This document shows positions 1 to 32,492 of a DNA stretch of 35,586 nucleotides, one piece after another. A program made the translations under genes and the position numbers. Under the pieces are notes generated by a model. That model saw only the letters and a list, made by a program, of their open reading frames with translations. It did not search any database and had not been told where the DNA came from. The DNA is from a virus: IMG/VR virus record IMGVR_UViG_3300006735_000094, positions 1-35,586 of that record; one strand, written 5' to 3'. The number at the start of each line of letters is the position of its first letter. Position 1 is the first letter of the stretch.

Positions 1-3000
1 AATTTACCGAAACTGAGTTATGACCGCGCCCTGGAAGGCGAAAAAGCCGGATTAAGTAAGTACCAGATTTACGAGGAAACGGGATTTTGGAAGGGTCCAG
101 AAGGTGATTGGCGTTTTGAGATCGATGACAAGGACATCAAATTTAAGCCGGAAGCTCTAAAATCCTTTGAGGAAATCATGGAGCAAGAGCTGTTGATCGG
201 AGCGCCTGGCGAGGTTGAAAGATTGAAGCGTGTTCGCTATGCACCGATCACTGATGTAGTCGAACATCCAGAGCTGTTTGAAGCCTACCCTGAGCTAAAA
301 GATTATTACATTAAGATTGATCCTGAAGGTGAATGGCGCGGTGGCGGAACCGCAAGAGGATACCAAAGCGGCAGGGGTGAAACCGTACCGTTGCCAGATG
401 GCACAGACGGGACCAGGCCCGTGATTATGCTAATGGCGCCGACCAGAGAATCAGAAATATCACGGCTTGAAACTCTGATAGAAGGCAAAAAAGGGTATCT
501 TTCCAACAAAATGGATGAGCTGGCAATGTTGGAAGGTCGCACAGATAGAAATGTAAAATTTGGTGAGGGAGAAGTAGATAAAAAATTACAGAAACTAATT
601 ATTGATGAAGAAAAAGCCATTGCAGGAATTGAAACCCAGCTGCAAAAGCTACGCGATGGCGGCCAGCCAGACATACCGTTTGCTGTTCGATCCACGTTGA
701 CCCATGAGCTGCAACATGCAGTCCAGGATATTGAAAATTTTCCGCGTGGCGGAAGTCCAGCAGCTGCTGAAATGCAGACTGAAACAGCAATCAAGCAGCT
801 GGCAGAGCAAACAGGAAAAACTTTAACTGAAGTGAAGCAAGCCGTAGCAAGCAGAAACTACACGCTTTCAAAAGTTGCGGCACTCGACAAAATCCTCTAT
901 TTGCAATTTTTGCAGCGTTTTAAAAACAGCGACAATCCAACCAGGTCGGCGCGGCTCATCAATAACAGCAGTTTAAATTATGAAATGACCATGGCAGATG
1001 AGCGATGGTTAGGGCCTCAGCCCAGCCGCCGCAACATCCCAAAATATGGCGATTATCTACGGCGCAAGGCGGAGCTATACCAGGCCAAGGTCATTGACAA
1101 CATTTTGAAACGTGAGGAATCCGGCCAAGGTCATTATAACGCTTTTCAGGATGCACTAAATTCGGTGCTGAAATACGAAGACAAACGCGGAAAAGTCGAT
1201 GTTTCTAATTTAAGCGTTAGAAATTACGATCCTCGGTTTATTGGAAACGCAAAATTTTATGAAGGTCGGCAAATCAGTTTGGAAAACAATGAGCGCCTGG
1301 CAAACCCTGACGAGATCATTCAGCCCAACTGGATGGCAATTCCTGAAAATGTTTTAAAGAACGCAATCAAGCGGCTTAGTAAGGAAGCAGATCAGTACGT
1401 AGGTGAGCAAAAAGTATTAAGCAAAGTCGAGGATGCGACAAAGCGGCTGGAAATACTTAGGCGCGACAACCCGTTTGATTATCAAACTGAGCTGTATTAT
1501 CGGCTGGCGGGTGAAGCGGAAGCCAGGGCGGTGCAAAGTCGTTTTGAAACATCTACAGCTTTGTCAAATTTGACTAAGGAATTTGATATTTACGAAGCTG
1601 ATAATGGGCTTTTTAAAATTAAAAGCGGCACAAATGATTTAACGCCAACAGAATTTAAATCACGCGAAGAGGCACAAAAGTATTTGGAGAAAGAGCTAGG
1701 TTTTGAGGATCGAATTCCTACCGCCATGCAGGATTATGGTGGCGCGTATGACCGCAATCCTGAGCAGCTGGCATTCTATTATCCCCGCGATCAAGTCCCT
1801 ACCGTTCCAGCAGCTGCCGCCGTTAATGTACCAAAATCAGACGTAGGTTTTACCAGCCCCGCGCTGCGCGTGATCATGGAAAGCAACAGGGAGCAGCTGC
1901 CGAAAGAGCAATGGCTGAAATTCCTGAAAGGCAACGGCGTTAAAGATGATGAGCTGGAATTTTCCGGCCTGGGCGAATGGCTGAAGCAGCAGAAAGGCCA
2001 AGTAAGCCGTGCCGATCTGGAAGAGTATATGACCACGCAAAACCAGCTGAAGATTGAGGAAGTTGTTTATGGTGGCATGGATGAGGATGTTTTGGTGCAG
2101 CGTTACATAGAAGATGTAACAAACCGATCCGACACATTAAGAATTGGCGATCTGCCAGAATTTGAGGATGAGATTGCTGGAGAGGTCGATAAATTAGTGG
2201 AGGATTGGAAAGGCGGGTATAGCTTAGTTTCTGGACTGCACAATAATGTCATTTTAGATGCAGACATGAATAGGCCCAGGTTAAACACAGAAGATGAAGC
2301 AAGGGCGTTTTTTGAAAATCACACAAAAAATATTCATGTAGTTGTAGATGAAAATGGTGAATTTATGCGGCTCAGGGACGGTGATATAAGTTTTTTTCAA
2401 AGCCAAAGCAGGGCCGACCAGGAAATTGAATTTGCTGCGGAAAGTGACGCCCGCACAATGACACAAGAAGATTTAAGACAAGCATTGAATATTGAAGGTG
2501 ATGAAAAAGCATTTGGCCCTGTTAAATATCCACAAGCCGACCTAAGCCTACCAGGTCAGCGGGACGAATACCGCGAGCTGGTGCTTTATTGGGATAAGCC
2601 AGGCCAGCCATCGATGCCTAAAGGGTTTAGTGTTAAAGAGGTTCCAACAGGATCCGGCAAATTTACCATTGTAGATGAGGATGGTTCTATTGTTGACAGA
2701 ACCTCATACGATACAGAAGCAGAGGCAATCGAAGCATTTAATAAATTTTTTGAAATAGAAAAAGGTACTGAATCCCTTTGGATGGGATCCCATCAATACA
2801 CGGACAAACCTAATCCCTTGCTGCATATCCGATTCAGTGAGCGCAGAGATTCAGCTGGCGAGCGCATCCTGGTGATCGAAGAAATCCAGAGTGATATTGC
2901 AAAACGTGGCCAGAAAAAAGGTTTCCGGCCTAAAGGGTTTGAAGCAACAAACAAAAAAATTAAACAGCTGGAAGCAGAAAAAGAGGCAAACACAGAAAAG

Positions 3001-4074
3001 TTTTTGGAGTTTCAAGGTATGTCAGCCAATGAAAGAGAACAGGCTGGCATGACTCAAGACGCTTATGATGCTTTAATAGCAAGGGATTCTAAAATTGATG
3101 AGCTGATAGAGGCGGAACAGCTGGCAATGATAGAGCTGCCGCCTGGTACTAAAAAAAGCCGCGAAAAAAGGCCAGGGGCGCCAGAAATGTTTTTGGTTCA
3201 GACTCCCCAAAAATACGAAAACCGTGATCTGTTTTACGGAATGACTGCACAAGAAGCTGAAAATAACGCTAAATATTTTATTAAATCAGTGCAGGAAAAG
3301 GGCTTGGACCGCGGCCCGTTCATTATGGATACCAAAGATTACATGGAGCTGGGCCTCAAGCGCATGATCCTCTGGGCGTCAGAAAACGGGTTTGAGAAGA
3401 TTGCCTGGACCACGGGCGAGCAGCAGATGAAGCGTTACAATCAGCTGGTCGAGGGTATTCAAGAGCTTACCGTGGCAAAGAAAAAAGATGGTTCAGAACA
3501 GTATCGAATAATGGGCCAGGGCGTAGGTGAAGAAAATATGGATTCAGGTGATATTTCGCGCAGCCAATTAGATGAATATGTAGGCGAGCAACTTGCGGCA
3601 AAAATAGAAGATGATTTTAACACGCGCACTGATCCAGAGGTGGATCTGGCGCCTAGCGGTGACGCCTATGACATGATTGAGGTTCCCGTTGACGATTTAA
3701 AACTGCCAAAGGATCCGCGACATTTTTTGATGATTGCTTACGACAAAGTGCTGAAAAACGCGGCGCAGAAACTAGGCAAGAAATATGACGCTAAGGTAGG
3801 GGTTGGGGATTTGACAGTAGAGGAAGCGCCGATGGTGAAACTGCCAGGCCAGGAAAACGTGCCAGATGCTCAAGTCAAATATGGAATGGGTAAGCCTATA
3901 CAAGAAAAAGTTTGGACCCTGAACCTTTCCGAAAAACTAAAATCAGCAGCAGAAAAAGGATTGCCGTACATGGCCGTAGTGCCGCCCGCTGCCATGATGA
4001 TGAACCAGGAACAGGACCGCACCCCAATAAACCGAGCAGCTGCTCGCCCTATTATGGAAAATTATGCTAACTAA
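1..4074 (+). CDS. Large polyvalent protein (LPD23-like, HELQH zincin motif), 5'-truncated
   Basis: The frame is open from base 1, so this is the C-terminal 1357 residues of a longer protein; the ATG at 178 is internal. The segment YEETGFWKGPEGDWRFEI (from about residue 22), the HPELFEAYPEL stretch and a HELQH motif (encoded by 703-717, about residue 235) followed by RGGSP match what I know of the large polyvalent protein-associated domain 23. A second conserved block lies further on: IEEIQSD near residue 960, a block near 1105-1140 with AWTTGEQQ and RY, and YDKVLKNAAQKLGKKY near 1247, all typical of phage polyvalent proteins. Such proteins are thought to be packaged and injected with the DNA to act on host defences or metabolism; that role is family-level inference. 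HExxH suggests a zinc peptidase-type fold, but activity is unproven. It lies directly before the portal gene. Domain assignment is fairly sure, function is not. Confidence 0.8.
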   Translation, partial: NLPKLSYDRALEGEKAGLSKYQIYEETGFWKGPEGDWRFEIDDKDIKFKPEALKSFEEIMEQELLIGAPGEVERLKRVRYAPITDVVEHPELFEAYPELKDYYIKIDPEGEWRGGGTARGYQSGRGETVPLPDGTDGTRPVIMLMAPTRESEISRLETLIEGKKGYLSNKMDELAMLEGRTDRNVKFGEGEVDKKLQKLIIDEEKAIAGIETQLQKLRDGGQPDIPFAVRSTLTHELQHAVQDIENFPRGGSPAAAEMQTETAIKQLAEQTGKTLTEVKQAVASRNYTLSKVAALDKILYLQFLQRFKNSDNPTRSARLINNSSLNYEMTMADERWLGPQPSRRNIPKYGDYLRRKAELYQAKVIDNILKREESGQGHYNAFQDALNSVLKYEDKRGKVDVSNLSVRNYDPRFIGNAKFYEGRQISLENNERLANPDEIIQPNWMAIPENVLKNAIKRLSKEADQYVGEQKVLSKVEDATKRLEILRRDNPFDYQTELYYRLAGEAEARAVQSRFETSTALSNLTKEFDIYEADNGLFKIKSGTNDLTPTEFKSREEAQKYLEKELGFEDRIPTAMQDYGGAYDRNPEQLAFYYPRDQVPTVPAAAAVNVPKSDVGFTSPALRVIMESNREQLPKEQWLKFLKGNGVKDDELEFSGLGEWLKQQKGQVSRADLEEYMTTQNQLKIEEVVYGGMDEDVLVQRYIEDVTNRSDTLRIGDLPEFEDEIAGEVDKLVEDWKGGYSLVSGLHNNVILDADMNRPRLNTEDEARAFFENHTKNIHVVVDENGEFMRLRDGDISFFQSQSRADQEIEFAAESDARTMTQEDLRQALNIEGDEKAFGPVKYPQADLSLPGQRDEYRELVLYWDKPGQPSMPKGFSVKEVPTGSGKFTIVDEDGSIVDRTSYDTEAEAIEAFNKFFEIEKGTESLWMGSHQYTDKPNPLLHIRFSERRDSAGERILVIEEIQSDIAKRGQKKGFRPKGFEATNKKIKQLEAEKEANTEKFLEFQGMSANEREQAGMTQDAYDALIARDSKIDELIEAEQLAMIELPPGTKKSREKRPGAPEMFLVQTPQKYENRDLFYGMTAQEAENNAKYFIKSVQEKGLDRGPFIMDTKDYMELGLKRMILWASENGFEKIAWTTGEQQMKRYNQLVEGIQELTVAKKKDGSEQYRIMGQGVGEENMDSGDISRSQLDEYVGEQLAAKIEDDFNTRTDPEVDLAPSGDAYDMIEVPVDDLKLPKDPRHFLMIAYDKVLKNAAQKLGKKYDAKVGVGDLTVEEAPMVKLPGQENVPDAQVKYGMGKPIQEKVWTLNLSEKLKSAAEKGLPYMAVVPPAAMMMNQEQDRTPINRAAARPIMENYAN

Positions 4075-18717: not shown

Positions 18718-20458
18718 TCCGAATAAGTATTTAGACCCTGCCGCATTTGCGGCCATGGTTCAGCGAATGGGTGGCGATGAAGCTGCTACCAGGCGAAGCC
18801 TAACCGCATTAGGTTTCAATCTGCCAGGGGCCGAGCCATCCGCTGAAGGCGGCAAGGATCCGCTGGTGCAGGATTTTTTAAATATGATAGCGCGTGGAAA
18901 CGTGCAGCCCCCTTCTGAAGAAATTACAGCCTTAGAAGAATCCAGGCCACCGTGGGATGTTGACCCGCTAAAAGCTGGTTTAATTGAACCCTTAGACGCC
19001 GAACCAACAGCTGATGCCGCTGTTACCACAGCCATGCAAGATCAGTCTGAAGTAGCAAAAAGGACATCACTACAAAGGCCAGAAGGTGATAAGCCTTCAC
19101 CCCTCGGCGGTTCATTCATTCAGGACATGTTTCAAAGTGAACCTGAGCCATTAAAAGAAACTGCGCAGCTGCTGGAAGAAAAGCAGGAAGTCAAAGAGGA
19201 ACCCGTTGATGAAATTGTTGAGGTGGAAGTCGATGAGGAACCTGGTTTTACTGGCTATCCAGTCGATTTTAGTACGACATTTAAGCAATCTGTTGATACC
19301 AACATTCTCAATCAACAGGCAAAAGACAGCGCATTAAAAGCCATTGAGTTTGCACAAGCTCAATACGAATTTATGGATAAAAATTTCGACATTAAAATAG
19401 ATGTCGATGCGCTTACCAAAAATATTGATCAGTCTATTTCAGACTATACAACCAAAATCGATGAGATTGCCCAGGAAGAGATAAGCCCGCCCTTTGAAGG
19501 CGATACCATGCGGAAAGTTTTGGCCGTGATCGGTGCAGCACTCGGAGCAGCTGCCTCGACATTTGGCGGTACGCCTAACTATGCACTTCAAATTATTGAC
19601 AAGGCGATTGATCGGGATCAGCAGAAAAAGCTGAAATCTAAAGAAATGAGGATGTTGTCAGCCAGAGAGCAGCGGCGTATTCTACAAGAGCAGCGCGGCC
19701 AAATGCTTCAGTTTGCACTGAACAAAACAAACCAGGCGATTCAAGCTGCACAGATGAAAGGCCAAGCAGCTCAATCACTATCGACATTGCAGATGTTAAA
19801 GGCGCAGCTGGAACAGGGCGCACAGCAGAATATTGACACGATCACAGCAAGCGCGATCAAAAACTATTTTGCAATGATGACGCAAGTGATGGCGAAAGAG
19901 CGCGGCAAAGGAAGGAATTACATTCCTGGCCTGGGCGTCATTACTGGCAGCCCGTCAAAAGAGGAAATGGCAAACATTAGAAAAGAGGGACAAACCTTTT
20001 CAGCGGGTTATTACGAAATTATTAAAAACCGCAACATTGCCATTGAAATGATGGATAAGCTAGACCAAGAGGGAGCTATCAATACCACGGTTCAATCTGG
20101 TTTAGGAATCCGTGGACTGAAAGGAAAGCAGTATAAGAATCTTGAGCAAGCCGCGACACTCATTTTCCTGAAATACAAAAATGACATTGCGAAAGTAGGT
20201 CAGGCGATGAGTGCAGCAGAGCAACAGCTGGTGGAAAGAGTCTTGCCGCAAACTACGCTGGCAACCATTACGCTGGGCGAGCTGAGGATTGCATTGGATG
20301 AACTGGATCGATTCCTGGAAAGCCGAGCTTACGGTTTACAGATGGGCATGGGCATCATGCCGACACAAAGGGATCTAAATTTCCAAGATTTTGCTGGCAT
20401 GTACGGACAGCAGCAGCCCACAAAAGAAGTGCCAGGCGTGAAAAAGGTTACTGACTGA
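18695..20458 (+). CDS. Internal virion / ejection protein (putative)
   Basis: A 587-residue protein of unknown family. Residues 1-60 contain a helical motif (YLDPAAFAAMVQRMGGDEAATRRSL). Residues 150-185 are very acidic, and about 210-265 are coiled coil. A short hydrophobic Ala/Gly segment lies at 274-290 (VLAVIGAALGAAASTFGG). After it comes a long Gln/Ala/Lys-rich helical region (about 300-390). A short membrane-active segment within a long helical protein, encoded between the nozzle and the last structural gene, is the usual look of podovirus ejection proteins that help DNA cross the envelope. The start overlaps the previous gene by 23 bases and the stop overlaps the next ATG (ATGA-type coupling at 20456-20460). 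Confidence 0.6.
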   Translation: MAVAAADNPNKYLDPAAFAAMVQRMGGDEAATRRSLTALGFNLPGAEPSAEGGKDPLVQDFLNMIARGNVQPPSEEITALEESRPPWDVDPLKAGLIEPLDAEPTADAAVTTAMQDQSEVAKRTSLQRPEGDKPSPLGGSFIQDMFQSEPEPLKETAQLLEEKQEVKEEPVDEIVEVEVDEEPGFTGYPVDFSTTFKQSVDTNILNQQAKDSALKAIEFAQAQYEFMDKNFDIKIDVDALTKNIDQSISDYTTKIDEIAQEEISPPFEGDTMRKVLAVIGAALGAAASTFGGTPNYALQIIDKAIDRDQQKKLKSKEMRMLSAREQRRILQEQRGQMLQFALNKTNQAIQAAQMKGQAAQSLSTLQMLKAQLEQGAQQNIDTITASAIKNYFAMMTQVMAKERGKGRNYIPGLGVITGSPSKEEMANIRKEGQTFSAGYYEIIKNRNIAIEMMDKLDQEGAINTTVQSGLGIRGLKGKQYKNLEQAATLIFLKYKNDIAKVGQAMSAAEQQLVERVLPQTTLATITLGELRIALDELDRFLESRAYGLQMGMGIMPTQRDLNFQDFAGMYGQQQPTKEVPGVKKVTD

Positions 20459-26026: not shown

Positions 26027-27226
26027 TTAGTTAATCCCCTTAATTTTGTTAGAAATCATGCTGCTGGTTTTTTTGGTTGTGGTCGTATCTAGGTGACCAT
26101 ATCGCAGCGTGGACTGATATGATTTATGTCCAGCGTGTTTTTGTGCTTCCGCCAACGTAGCGCCTGACATTAGGGCATAACTTACTGAAGTATGTCTGAG
26201 GTCATGCCATCTAAAATCTTTAACCCCTGCACGTTTACATGCACGTTTAAATGCCTTCCTGACTTCAGGCTTTGGGAAAACCATGGCACTGGTGGCATTT
26301 TTAAAACGATTACGAAGCAATTCAAAAAGGTCAGGATCTTCGATGCTAAAGTGGTGATCATCATCATTTTTACGTTCTACAAAGGTCAGTTTATTATCCT
26401 CAAAACTGACATGCTCCCAGCGCAATCTTTTACACTCTGAAAACCTAGCAGCTGTTAAAATTGAAAACATAAACATGTCATATAAACATTCGGATCCAAG
26501 TGATGCGCCAAGCTCCGATAAGTCTGAAGATTTTTTGCACTCCAATCGAAGGGCTTCAAACTCTTCCTCATCGAGCTTTCTAACTCGCTCATTTTTAGGT
26601 TCACTCTTAATAACCTTTTCAATTGGGTTTTCATCACAAACACCGACATCATCCCTTTTACCAAAAGCAAAGATACTGCCGAGGGTAGCCATGTAGTTGT
26701 TGGCTGTTTTAACGGCGCGGGTTTTTTCAATTGTATTGGCAACCTCGCGGATCTTGCGGGGCCAGTATGATTTGCCTTTAGCGTCAGTCCAGCTGATCAG
26801 CTCCTTGCCAAGCTGCTCACGCCAGAAATCTATATGGTGCAGCATATTAACCTGGTCCTTGCAGTTTTTCAGGTGGCCGTGATCTGGATCCACATACTTG
26901 TCAATCAGATCATTCAGCGTGGTCTTATCAAGATCGATGGCGGCAGCGGGAGTGCCAAGCTCGGCATCCTTAGATTTCCAAAGCTCTAACATTTCAATGT
27001 CATAAGTATCAATAGAAAGCTCTGACACTTTACACAATGTAATCGGGCGCTTTCTTGCGCCAGGTTTTGCTGGCGGGAATATACCGACAAGGTTGACTTC
27101 ATCCGCGTCTAGTTTTGTAACATCCTCGACCTGGCGGCCACCGCGACCATAGCCAAAAGGCAGCAGCTTGAACTTGCCGCCGTATTGGTTTTGCTTCCAT
27201 TTCCTCAGTAGTGGGTGCTTTTTCAT
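26027..27226 (-). CDS. int: Tyrosine recombinase integrase
   Basis: A 399-residue phage integrase. The catalytic domain has R261 (TAARFSECKRLRW), a probable Lys near 286, H341-x-x-R344 (WHDLRHTSVS), H367 (AGHKSYQST) and the nucleophile Y376 (LRYGHL). The N-terminal 100 residues are basic and probably bind arm sites; residues 100-190 form the core-binding SAM-like domain. It would catalyse site-specific recombination between attP (24078-24294) and a host tRNA gene. GAGG stands five bases before the ATG. It is the first gene of the leftward operon that also encodes the repressor, so integrase and repressor are probably made from one promoter. Confidence 0.95.
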   Translation of the reverse strand: MKKHPLLRKWKQNQYGGKFKLLPFGYGRGGRQVEDVTKLDADEVNLVGIFPPAKPGARKRPITLCKVSELSIDTYDIEMLELWKSKDAELGTPAAAIDLDKTTLNDLIDKYVDPDHGHLKNCKDQVNMLHHIDFWREQLGKELISWTDAKGKSYWPRKIREVANTIEKTRAVKTANNYMATLGSIFAFGKRDDVGVCDENPIEKVIKSEPKNERVRKLDEEEFEALRLECKKSSDLSELGASLGSECLYDMFMFSILTAARFSECKRLRWEHVSFEDNKLTFVERKNDDDHHFSIEDPDLFELLRNRFKNATSAMVFPKPEVRKAFKRACKRAGVKDFRWHDLRHTSVSYALMSGATLAEAQKHAGHKSYQSTLRYGHLDTTTTKKTSSMISNKIKGIN

Positions 27227-27539: not shown

Positions 27540-27904
27540 TGTTCCCTGAAAGCGAGGCAAAGATTCAAAAGGCGATCCTGGAATGGGGCACATACCAGGA
27601 AGGTATACAATTATTCAGGATGAATGTGATCGGCATCCCCATTCCAGGAAAACCTGGCAAGTATCGCCCTTCAAGAAATGCTGGCATGGCCGATATCTTC
27701 TGCCAGCTCATGGTGGCCGGAATCCCCGTTTCCTGTTGGCTTGAAGTCAAAACCAAAACAGGCCGCCAAACCAAAATCCAAAAACTGTTTGAGGGAGCAG
27801 TTTCTAATTATTACATCGTGCGCTCCATTGATGATGCCGAGGCTGCGCTTTCTGATGTACGCAAAAAAACAATGGAGAAAATACGTGAGTATCTACCCTT
27901 TTGA
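27536..27904 (+). CDS. VRR-NUC domain nuclease
   Basis: A 122-residue protein with the complete VRR-NUC core: GMADIFC (D53), CWLEVKT (E70 and K72 as the ExK pair) and Q82 in TKIQKLFEG. VRR-NUC is a PD-(D/E)xK-type nuclease fold known from Fan1 and from stand-alone phage enzymes, which are thought to cut branched or Holliday-junction DNA. In this phage it would resolve recombination intermediates alongside the exonuclease and annealing protein encoded next. It is coupled to the preceding gene at the start and overlaps the next by 20 bases. Confidence 0.85.
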   Translation: MMFPESEAKIQKAILEWGTYQEGIQLFRMNVIGIPIPGKPGKYRPSRNAGMADIFCQLMVAGIPVSCWLEVKTKTGRQTKIQKLFEGAVSNYYIVRSIDDAEAALSDVRKKTMEKIREYLPF

Positions 27905-28751
27905 TCGATCCGCGATCCAGGAAGGAATCGCGATTGAAGATTACCACAACCGCGAAATCAACCCTGGCCTGAGCAGCACCATATTCAGGCATATCTCAAC
28001 CAGCCCAGAATACGCTTACCACAAGCGGATGCACCCTGGAAAGCCAACCAAGGATATGCAAGACGGTTCGATGCTGCACTCGGTTATCACTGAGCCGGAA
28101 ACCTTTGAAGAAAACTATATGCTGACGCCGAAAATTAATCGGCAATCAAAAGCAGGTAAAGAGGCTTATGCCAAATATATGGAAGAGGCAAAAGGCAAGC
28201 AGCTGGTGAATCAAGACCAGTGGGAAATGGCGCTGCAAGTTAGGGATTCAGTACGGTCAAACCGTGAAGCAAATCTGCTGATCAGCGGAACCGAGCCGCA
28301 CCATACTAGGGTCGAAGTTTCAGGATTTCTTTACAACAAAGATAAACAGACGGTTAAGGCTCGGCCCGATGTCATTTCAAAATATCCCATCATGTCGCTG
28401 GCAGATATTAAAAGCCGCCAGGGTGGAGCAGCTGCACGCGATATTTTCCTGAAAGATTTAATCAATCATAAAATTTACCTTCAGGCCGCCCTTCAGGTTT
28501 ACGTTTGGGAAAGCGCCGGAATTACAATTGAAAATTATTATTACATTCTTGTGGAGAAAGCCCCGCCTTTCCAGGCCGTGGTCTATCCGCTGGACCGTCA
28601 GTTTATTGATCTAGGGATCATTGAACTGAATGACCTATCCATCCGCTGGGAACGCTGGATGGAAGATCCAACCCCAGGATATGGCTATTACCAGCAGCGC
28701 CTGGAACCGCCCGCCTGGTTCATCAAAAAATATGGAGATTCTGATGAGTGA
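27885..28751 (+). CDS. RecE-like PD-(D/E)xK exonuclease
   Basis: A 288-residue protein starting at a GTG (27885) with GGAG eight bases ahead; the longer frame upstream is only the shadow of the VRR-NUC gene. Motifs are NPGLSSTIFRHI, GSMLHSVITEPETF (the G-x-x-x-H and EP motif of RecE-type nucleases), then RPDVISK and LADIKSR, which give the PD...DxK catalytic pair, and a following QAALQVYVW helix. It would digest one strand of linear double-stranded DNA to make 3' tails. It is encoded directly before, and overlaps by eight bases, the annealing protein RecT, the usual pairing. Confidence 0.88.
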   Translation: MSIYPFDRSAIQEGIAIEDYHNREINPGLSSTIFRHISTSPEYAYHKRMHPGKPTKDMQDGSMLHSVITEPETFEENYMLTPKINRQSKAGKEAYAKYMEEAKGKQLVNQDQWEMALQVRDSVRSNREANLLISGTEPHHTRVEVSGFLYNKDKQTVKARPDVISKYPIMSLADIKSRQGGAAARDIFLKDLINHKIYLQAALQVYVWESAGITIENYYYILVEKAPPFQAVVYPLDRQFIDLGIIELNDLSIRWERWMEDPTPGYGYYQQRLEPPAWFIKKYGDSDE

Positions 28752-29670
28752 TGCAGCTGTAGCAGTTATAGAAAAACCAAAATCTTTGACTGAAATCATG
28801 GCCGCCGAGGTCAACCTGGACCGTGAGGTTTATGTCAAAACCATAAAAAAAACCGTGATGCCTAACGGCGTAACGGATGAAGATGTTGCTGCCTTTCTGG
28901 TGCTGGCGCGTGACCTGGGCCTCAACCCGCTATCTGATGAAACACACGCCTTTCCATCGAAGGGCGGTGTGAAGCTGATGGTCGGGGTTGATGGATGGGT
29001 AAGCCTGGCGCAGCGAAACAGGAATTTCGATGGATGGGAGCATGAAGATAATTTTGATGAAAAGGGAAACCTGGTTAGCGTGACCGCGGTTATCCGGCGC
29101 CGCGATCATAGTGCGCCGACAAAGATCACCGAATACATGGATGAATGTAAACGGAACACCGATCCCTGGAAACAATTTCCAAAGCGGATGCTTCGGCATA
29201 AAGCATTCAGCCAGGGCGTCAGAATGGCTTTTGGAATTAGTAATGCGCTGGACCAGGACGAGGCTATGGACATGGGTTACGATTCCGAAAACCGTGAAAT
29301 GGTTGTGATCAATCCAAAGGGCGAGCAAGCGGATCCGTTGCAGCTCGCAGCTGCTCAAGTTAATGACCAGGTTCAGATTGGCGATCCCTCTTTTGAAAAG
29401 GAAATGGAAAAGGCAAAAGTTGAAACCGTGTCGAAGGTTGTGGAAACCAAGAAAGGCCCTGTTGCCGTTGAGATTGATGGCGAAACACCGATGGACCTGG
29501 TGATTAAAAAGATCAAAAAATTTAAAGCACCAGGCCCGCTTCAGTCATACCTGGCGCTGAAAAGAGAGCTGGAATGGCCGAAACAATTCAGCAGCGATCA
29601 GATTGCGGATCTTGAGGAACTTGCCAATGGAAAGCTGGATGAACTACGAACTGAAGAGGTGGCGGAATGA
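28744..29670 (+). CDS. recT: RecT/Red-beta family single-strand annealing protein
   Basis: A 308-residue protein that starts at the ATG at 28744, with a GGAG site inside the end of the exonuclease gene. The conserved core runs from VTDEDVAAFLVLARDLGLNPLSDETHAF through GGVKLMVGVDGWVSLAQ and later WKQFPKRMLRHKAFSQGVRMAFG. These match the RecT/Bet superfamily segments that form oligomeric rings and anneal complementary strands. The C-terminal third is Glu/Lys rich and variable. Together with the exonuclease it forms a two-gene homologous recombination system that can circularise or repair incoming DNA. Family is certain; whether it is closer to RecT or Bet is not decided. Confidence 0.9.
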   Translation: MSDAAVAVIEKPKSLTEIMAAEVNLDREVYVKTIKKTVMPNGVTDEDVAAFLVLARDLGLNPLSDETHAFPSKGGVKLMVGVDGWVSLAQRNRNFDGWEHEDNFDEKGNLVSVTAVIRRRDHSAPTKITEYMDECKRNTDPWKQFPKRMLRHKAFSQGVRMAFGISNALDQDEAMDMGYDSENREMVVINPKGEQADPLQLAAAQVNDQVQIGDPSFEKEMEKAKVETVSKVVETKKGPVAVEIDGETPMDLVIKKIKKFKAPGPLQSYLALKRELEWPKQFSSDQIADLEELANGKLDELRTEEVAE

Positions 29671-31402: not shown

Positions 31403-32314
31403 ATGGATGGCTTCATTCTATATCACAGATCCTCGATCAAGCACCCGCTGAGATCAAAACCAGCTGTATGGTCATATTGGATTCATTGCCTGGAATCCGC
31501 CGCATGGGTTGATCATAAAGTATGGTGGAATAACCAGGAATATTTACTGGAACGCGGCAGCTTCATCAGCAGCTCCGCCAGGGACCAGATTCAGCTGGGC
31601 CTTTCACGGCAAGAATTACGGACTGCACAAAAGCATCTTGAACGGTGCGAAATGATAACCATCGAGCCAACCAACAGCGGAACGCTGATCAGAGTCTGCA
31701 ATTACTCCGTTTACCAGAATCCGAATGGTAAGGCTAACCAACAGGCCAACCCTCAATCAACCAACAATCAACCAACAGCTAACCAACAGCTAACCAACAA
31801 TCAACCACAACATAAAGAAGGGAATAAAATAAAAGAAAGAAAAAAAGGAAAAAAGATAACTACTGCCGAGCCAAAATATTCCGAGGCTTTTGAAGCATTC
31901 TGGAAAGCATATCCAAAGAAGGAAAACAAAGCTGAAGCATGGGAGCTGTATGACGATATTGGACCAGAGCAAGAACAGCAGCTGCTTGAATTTGCTCAAC
32001 GCTACGCAAAGGAATACAAAGGCAACCGAAAACAATACGCACAGAAAGCTAAATATATTCTCAGGAACATGGAATGGCTGAACTGGATGAACGACAACCA
32101 GCCTGAACCAACAGCATCACCAGAGCAACCACGCCAGGAAGATCAATCATCTAAGCAACGCGGCTGCTCATCATTCCAATTCTATCGCACCATCATTCGG
32201 CAATCCCTGCCGGATCTTAACCTGGAACAGATTCAACAGCACTGGAATCAATTCCATCACTTTAAAACAGTAATCGAAAATGCAGCAAATCATCAACGTG
32301 CAGCAACTCGCTGA
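31403..32314 (+). CDS. Replication initiator / replisome organiser (lambda O-like layout)
   Basis: A 303-residue protein. Residues 1-115 contain a winged helix-turn-helix typical of phage replisome organisers: GSFISSSARDQIQLGLSRQE, then LRTAQKHLERCEMI, then NSGTLIRVCNYSVYQ. Residues 115-150 are an Asn/Gln/Thr-rich linker whose DNA holds an 11-base-period iteron array. The C-terminal domain (YSEAFEAFWKAYPKKENKAE and on) is the usual helicase-loader or primosome contact domain. It probably binds iterons inside its own gene to open the origin and recruit the host DnaB. No phage helicase or polymerase is visible in the window, so host replication machinery is expected to do the rest. Confidence 0.8.
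   Translation: MDGFILYHRSSIKHPLRSKPAVWSYWIHCLESAAWVDHKVWWNNQEYLLERGSFISSSARDQIQLGLSRQELRTAQKHLERCEMITIEPTNSGTLIRVCNYSVYQNPNGKANQQANPQSTNNQPTANQQLTNNQPQHKEGNKIKERKKGKKITTAEPKYSEAFEAFWKAYPKKENKAEAWELYDDIGPEQEQQLLEFAQRYAKEYKGNRKQYAQKAKYILRNMEWLNWMNDNQPEPTASPEQPRQEDQSSKQRGCSSFQFYRTIIRQSLPDLNLEQIQQHWNQFHHFKTVIENAANHQRAATR
31736..31810 (+). repeat. Iteron array inside the initiator gene (candidate replication origin)
   Basis: Exact copies of AACCAACA start at 31736, 31759, 31770, 31781 and 31792, and degenerate copies at 31748 (AACCCTCA) and 31803 (AACCACAA). From 31748 on, spacing is exactly 11 bases, about one helical turn and not a multiple of three, so the repeat is kept as DNA and not as protein. 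Next to it is an A-rich stretch (31811-31860). This is the lambda-type origin design. Confidence 0.7.
31811..31860 (+). other. A-rich stretch, candidate origin unwinding element
   Basis: Directly after the iterons, about 50 bases are nearly all A with some G (including GAATAAAATAAAAG and GAAAAAAAGG). In lambda-type origins an A/T-rich strand-asymmetric element beside the iterons melts first. The stretch also codes for a Lys/Glu run of the initiator. Confidence 0.5.
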
Positions 32315-32492
32315 CAAGAAATTCCTAGACTCCGAAGAGGCTTCGCAATACATGCTCGGCATGTTCAACATCAAACTCTCATCCTGCACCATCAGACGCC
32401 TTTGCCGACTGAATAAGATTAAGTCCATCAAGCCAGGAAAGGCTCGCGCCATCAAACCCGAATGGTTGAATGAATACCTCGAAAGTGCATGA
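32280..32492 (+). CDS. Small helix-turn-helix protein (excisionase-like)
   Basis: A 70-residue protein overlapping the end of the initiator gene by 35 bases. It has an excisionase/HTH_17-like form: KKFLDSEEASQYMLGMFNIK, then SSCTIRRLCRLNKIKSIKPG, and a final AIKPEWLNEYLESA, where the last part is the wing and closing helix. It is the last gene before the late control region at 32493-32615, so it could regulate terminase and head genes or be the excisionase. The domain call is good; the role is open. Confidence 0.7.
   Translation: MQQIINVQQLADKKFLDSEEASQYMLGMFNIKLSSCTIRRLCRLNKIKSIKPGKARAIKPEWLNEYLESA

Follow-up and report, generated by a model that had tools for sequence, protein, structure and literature searches.

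The virus record analysed here (IMG/VR virus record IMGVR_UViG_3300006735_000094, taken over all its 35,586 bases and referred to below as the window) carries an array of seven 11-bp direct repeats inside an initiator gene. We assign a probability of roughly 0.87 to the reading that this array is the phage replication origin, nested in its own initiator gene, bound by the winged helix of the initiator and followed by an A-rich tract that is melted, with recruitment of the host helicase. The array, its period, selection at the DNA level, the linkage to the winged helix, the covariation between residues and bases and the unstable flank were all computed directly. The window locus is an example of an already known kind, represented by the in-gene O-type origins and by the 11-bp array of phage L; what is new is that residues of the recognition helix covary with bases of the iteron.

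The initiator gene and its surroundings

The gene (31403..32314, plus strand) translates into a protein of 303 aa that matches the PHROG families 2514 ("DnaD-like helicase loader"; E = 4.8e-24, residues 1-175), 270 ("replication initiation protein"; E = 3e-18) and 345 ("replication initiation O-like"; E = 2.1e-5). No family of Pfam (at E 0.1) or NCBIfam was matched; Pfam Phage_rep_O, found in 1 of 60 relatives, does not match the window protein, where the O-like signal is that of PHROG 345. The gene belongs to the DnaD-like/O-like phage initiators: a winged helix comes first, then a disordered linker whose codons contain the array, and last a helical C terminus.

The winged-helix DNA-binding domain (residues 1-105; 31403..31717, plus strand), which an earlier note on this DNA had placed before the array from the letters alone, is borne out by a profile match and by an AlphaFold2 model of residues about 9-105, computed with 60 relatives as input (mean pLDDT 91.3, pTM 0.83). 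Fold searches of the PDB returned generic winged-helix matches only, all with E > 0.005, and therefore no structural family is claimed. The domain profile matches the FadR-family winged helix 8pqm at E = 0.002, and the recognition-helix region aligns without gaps with the FadR-family segment LAESFQVSRSAVREAL of that structure, which puts residues 69 and 70 where the recognition helix begins. In FadR, the corresponding helix-start region makes base contacts. The recognition helix is predicted at residues 69-81 (31607..31645, plus strand), with Arg69-Gln70 at its start, on the basis of DSSP of the model and the covariation described below. Linker residues 109-157 are predicted to be disordered and are rich in Asn and Gln, and the residues encoded by the array (about 112-136) fall inside this segment. 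The C-terminal region (31875..32311, plus strand) is helical, with predicted helices at residues 161-231 and 257-302 of modest or low model confidence; PHROG replication families span residues 108-267, and the region would contact the host replicative helicase. The "helicase-loader-contact-type domain" previously claimed after the array found no support, as Pfam recognised no DnaD/DnaB_2 C-terminal domain at E 0.1, the matches there are to PHROG replication families only and the model is of low confidence.

The right half of the window also contains an integrase gene (26027-27226, minus strand) and ORFs for a RecE-like exonuclease (27678-28751) and a RecT-like annealing protein (28630-29670), the latter two lying upstream of the initiator (27678-29670) and overlapping by approximately 120 nt. 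Downstream, a 70-aa HTH-like ORF (32280-32492; HTH_17, E = 8e-4, under the curated cut-off) overlaps the end of the initiator gene and is followed by the terminase small subunit, terminase subunits also being found in the right half. A search of the record for DnaB_C and IstB, standing for DnaB-type helicases and DnaC/IstB-type loaders, gave no match to either, and the 35,586-base record may be a fragment. Elsewhere in the window, a 1298-aa ORF (178-4074) located beside portal and head genes matches one PHROG marginally (function unknown) and otherwise shows almost no similarity.

The repeat array and selection on its DNA

The array (31736..31810, plus strand; unit YAACCAACA(A/G)(T/C), with a core kept in relatives) had been described as five exact and two degenerate copies with an 11-base period from 31748 to 31803, and repeat scans confirmed this. 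Exact copies of AACCAACA start at 31736, 31759, 31770, 31781 and 31792, the degenerate copies AACCCTCA and AACCACAA at 31748 and 31803, and the first spacing of 12 is followed by 11 five times. The whole window holds 8 exact copies, compared with 1.38 +/- 1.07 in dinucleotide shuffles (maximum of 4 in 100 shuffles); those outside the array lie at 31669 and 32106 in the same gene and at 19002 elsewhere, and a weight-matrix scan of the window found no further iteron cluster. By motif scan, two extra motif-like copies fall in the wing-coding region (31657..31676, plus strand; AACCATCG at 31657 and AACCAACA at 31669) and are probably incidental. As further origin parts, the copy at 31669 was rejected because it is missing in L003 and L004, and that at 32106 because, besides the window, just the identical copies L001 and L002 have it.

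The seven copies occupy codon phases 0, 0, 2, 1, 0, 2 and 1, so that all three phases are used, and when codons were shuffled synonymously with the protein kept, none of 20,000 shuffles reached the lag-11 score of the gene (30; shuffle maximum 28.5). A nucleotide search of phage records with the window gave no match and an initial protein search of genome contigs gave no relative; the close-relative alignment consists of seven sequences, namely, the window and six relatives with 86-100% protein identity. Within it, the AACCA core is variable in 1 of 35 columns versus 13 of 37 among the remaining array columns (p = 6e-4; seven sequences), a contrast that holds when stratified by codon position. 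In three of the relatives (L005-L007) the linker peptide is altered (NN to SD, QL to RP) with iteron spacing unchanged, which is what the earlier note had predicted from such an alignment. Its claim of a shifting codon phase and of selection at the DNA level is thus upheld by the phases, by the shuffles and by a core that stays frozen where the peptide is altered.

Straight after the array, as had also been claimed, comes an A-rich, asymmetric and easily melted stretch (31808..31867, plus strand), which its composition and stability suggest as the unwinding element. These 60 nt are 73% A+T and 63% A, belong to the least stable 1% of the record and are nearly constant in the six relatives. Across the wider set of relatives, the median rank of the 60 nt after the array falls within the least stable 4% of the locus, the exceptions at the exact post-array place being the short lambdoid arrays and L014. 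GC skew, which had been proposed as a check, leaves the site unmarked: there is no window-wide switch at the array, only a local change, and skew was rejected as origin evidence.

The array and the recognition helix across the family

Diverse relatives were gathered by protein similarity, 36 with the window included, covering Listeria, Staphylococcus, Lactobacillus, Bacillus, Vibrio, Shewanella, Pseudoalteromonas, Pseudomonas, Cellulophaga, enterobacteria and uncultivated viruses. With an array called at a lag-11 score of at least 13, 30 of the 36 have one just after the winged helix, compared with 0 of 68 other ORFs of the same loci (p = 1.7e-20). The letters of the array vary among relatives (TAACCAACAAG, TAACAAACAGC, ATCAACAACAA, GGCAAGCCAAA, TGACAATCAAG and GTCCAACGGTT), and one iteron per locus yields the skeleton RRC[AC]ANC[RA]ARY, in which two near-invariant C's stand 4 bp apart (position 3 in 31/31, position 7 in 29/31); its information amounts to 7.4 bits, compared with at most 5.2 in 60 nulls. 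A strong 11-bp array is missing in 6 of the 36, and some of these are spaced differently: 12 bp in L016 (Mammaliicoccus phi31; array at 2835-2894), in L132 and, by eye, in L123 (A118; about 1840-1930), 22 bp in L126 (Anoxybacillus A403) and 23 bp in L130 (Vibrio 1.189), the array of L129 being short. The relatives with 12-, 22- and 23-bp spacing, which is near one or two helical turns, are possibly distinct sub-families.

Genes with a similar C terminus and another N terminus (L084-L088 and L097-L102) show no 11-bp array; in this natural domain swap, the Listeria phage genes share 59-66% C-terminal identity in the matched segment and have none. Since the array is missing when the N terminus differs, it travels with the winged helix. 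Two genes with yet another N terminus (L103 and L104) contain a GA-rich period-11 microsatellite that encodes an ERERER linker and may be either another in-gene array or simple slippage. Some database labels look wrong (records L014 and L017 and hit H115, MZ361825.1): Dulem virus 31 (35.8 kb, carrying RusA/exonuclease genes) is listed under Microviridae, vB_LmoS_C996 under Hydrogenophilus, and the initiator of vB_LmoS_P9 bears the annotation "tail tape-measure protein".

A rule connecting residue 70 with bases 1 and 2 of the iteron was noticed and written down, and 2.9 million viral contigs were then scanned by DNA patterns alone. The winged-helix profile gave 256 loci, 236 of them with an 11-bp array, 144 non-redundant and 123 with the canonical Arg73; in these 123 non-redundant loci, which form the covariation set, the array starts at a median of 19 nt 3' of the winged-helix codons, with a length of 4.7 units. 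With the register of the array set without bases 1, 2 and 4, Arg70 pairs with GA at bases 1-2 in 44 of 47 loci, Lys70 with GG in 15 of 16 and Gln70 with AA in 27 of 38; the other 11 Gln70 arrays have an ambiguous register that could be set otherwise, and by eye their cyclic unit contains AAC. Over the 123 loci, the strongest couplings link residue 70 with base 1 (mutual information 0.77, z = 20), residue 70 with bases 2 and 11 (z = 11 for both) and residue 69 with base 4 (z = 9.5), Glu69 going with C. Preferences of Arg for guanine and of Gln for adenine are classical side-chain preferences.

The rules stated beforehand fared as follows: (i) arrays selected by GGC have Lys in 13 of 14 canonical helices; (ii) arrays selected by GAC have Arg in 34 of 42; (iii) AACC arrays in a separate collection of bacterial genomes have Gln in 9 of 9 readable winged helices, in Bacillota, Bacteroidota and Pseudomonadota; (iv) a weak rule from AGC to Ser, predicted from one case, failed on AGC-selected arrays. 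Residue 69 predicts base 4 loosely, with Glu in 5 of the 9 AACC arrays. In loci not picked on bases 1-2, the Arg/Gln difference alone is seen (p = 1.2e-8). One contig (IMGVR_UViG_2891296228_000001; L235 and L364) displays eleven separate AGC.A.C.A matches with an 11-bp period over several kb, and was not identified as belonging to the winged-helix family.

The contribution of relatedness was assessed on a 101-domain tree from which the helix columns were left out; on it, residue 70 changes at least 41 times, compared with 43 with shuffled labels, which argues for little contribution from shared ancestry. Tree-independent pairs, counted on the full best tree, agree in direction for Arg versus Gln and a G at base 1 (23.5 concordant against 0 discordant; p = 1e-7), for Lys versus Arg and a G at base 2 (13 against 0; p = 2e-4) and for Glu69 and a C at base 4 (11.9 against 0.1; p = 5e-4). 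Control columns are mostly near even, one of them (Arg/Gln with base 2) reaching p = 0.03 in the opposite direction, and the starred, well-supported branches alone provide too few pairs for significance. Close pairs fit on both sides in 35 of 42 cases, as in L020, where LTQQNVRT accompanies AACCAACAAGT, versus L327, where LSERKVRT accompanies GACCAACAAGT, or in L105 with AACAATCAAAT versus L108 with GACAATCAAAC. With Arg69-Gln70 and the iteron AACC, the window itself conforms to the Gln rule and to the tendency of Arg69 to go with C (5/6).

Judged from sequence, the initiator protein very probably reads the array. We further consider it likely that a two-residue code operates, in which residue 70 sets bases 1-2 (GA for Arg, GG for Lys, AA for Gln) and residue 69 biases base 4 (C for Glu), that among the phages of Bacillota, Pseudomonadota and Bacteroidota initiator and origin evolve as a single, self-contained unit of specificity, and that both the position and the specificity of the origin can be predicted from sequence.

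Proposed mechanism, alternatives and significance

Under the mechanism that we propose, the N-terminal winged helix would bind the 11-bp iterons, one per helical turn, which would place neighbouring initiators next to each other on a single face of the DNA. The recognition helix would read the start of the iteron, Gln70 specifying the two adenines and residue 69 influencing base 4; the resulting nucleoprotein complex would open the A-rich tract directly downstream, and the C-terminal region would bring the host replicative helicase. The host enzyme is the likely recruit, because no gene for a DnaB-type helicase or a DnaC/IstB-type loader was found in the record. We infer binding, melting, helicase recruitment and origin activity at the array from the computed features given above.

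Nested origins in O genes are classical, as in lambda and the Stx phages (PMC7466680), and the lambda iterons are four imperfect inverted repeats of approximately 19-20 bp (PMC7466680, PMC8022706). The likeness to lambda O/ori that the earlier note had claimed stands as regards iterons inside the initiator coding sequence and an adjoining AT-rich tract, but not as regards the repeats, which are seven 11-bp direct units in the window and four inverted ones of about 20 bp in lambda; lambda also has an adjacent P gene, whereas the window is without a recognisable loader gene. Closer is gene 18 of Salmonella phage L, a gpO-like gene whose six imprecise direct repeats of 11 bp (TGTCCAACGGA) have been called the likely origin (PMC8022706); it shares with the window a direct-repeat array of this pitch inside a gpO-like gene and differs in its iteron letters and in having its own DnaB-type helicase gene (gene 12), of which none was found in the window record. 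The PHROG 2514 initiators of Listeria, Staphylococcus, Lactobacillus, Vibrio and Pseudoalteromonas phages possess the same winged helix, mostly an 11-bp array and an A-rich flank, with iteron letters that shift in step with the recognition-helix residues and, in some, 12- or 22/23-bp spacing. The O-like genes of HK620 and Sf6 are homologous in the N-terminal domain (tblastn from the HS2 relative, E about 1e-10) and have a rep_origin annotated at the array, with 11-bp spacing and at the same place in the homologous genes; they differ in belonging to another recognition-helix subfamily (LKPDRVQ in HK620), in a shorter array and in a neighbouring DnaB-like helicase. RepA_N plasmid and PLE initiators likewise combine a winged helix with iterons, but these are semi-palindromic around poly-A tracts, in PLE within a noncoding region (PMC7145576), whereas the units of the window are direct, non-palindromic and 11 bp long.

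The same protein might bind the array for another purpose, repressing its own early operon or acting in plasmid-style partition, with replication starting elsewhere. The covariation shows reading by the winged helix and not what the reading is for, and the fold is common to transcription regulators, among them FadR, MecI and CodY. We nevertheless regard this explanation as improbable, since the array lies within the gene, about 330 bp past its start rather than at a promoter, an unstable A-rich tract follows it in most relatives, the homologues HK620 and Sf6 carry annotated origins at the same place, and the family carries replication-initiator or helicase-loader annotations.

Two further explanations appear highly unlikely. 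That the array is a by-product of the linker, or of slippage, and has no function as DNA would accord with the Asn/Gln-rich, low-complexity and predicted disordered nature of that segment and with the origin of tandem repeats by slippage, but the out-of-frame period of 11 was never reproduced by synonymous shuffles, the core is frozen while the peptide varies, unrelated ORFs are without such an array (0/68), and the iteron letters follow the residues of the recognition helix. Equally hard to credit is binding by some other protein, either a host factor or the 70-aa HTH protein (32280-32492), for which the overlap of this small ORF with the end of the initiator gene and its HTH_17 match would speak; the array follows the winged helix of the initiator in relatives with different neighbours, and its bases covary with the recognition helix of the initiator.

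In the open-licence literature, we found no report of a residue-to-base rule or of an 11-bp pitch kept across the family. To our knowledge, experimental origin maps exist for few phages. The conserved position, the conserved 11-bp pitch and the residue-to-base rule together would make origins and specificity groups predictable in a large number of phages and prophages. The joint change of initiator and origin would be explained as well: as both reside in one gene, a new specificity would be inherited, and also exchanged, in one piece. The long-standing question of what determines O/ori type specificity would become testable.
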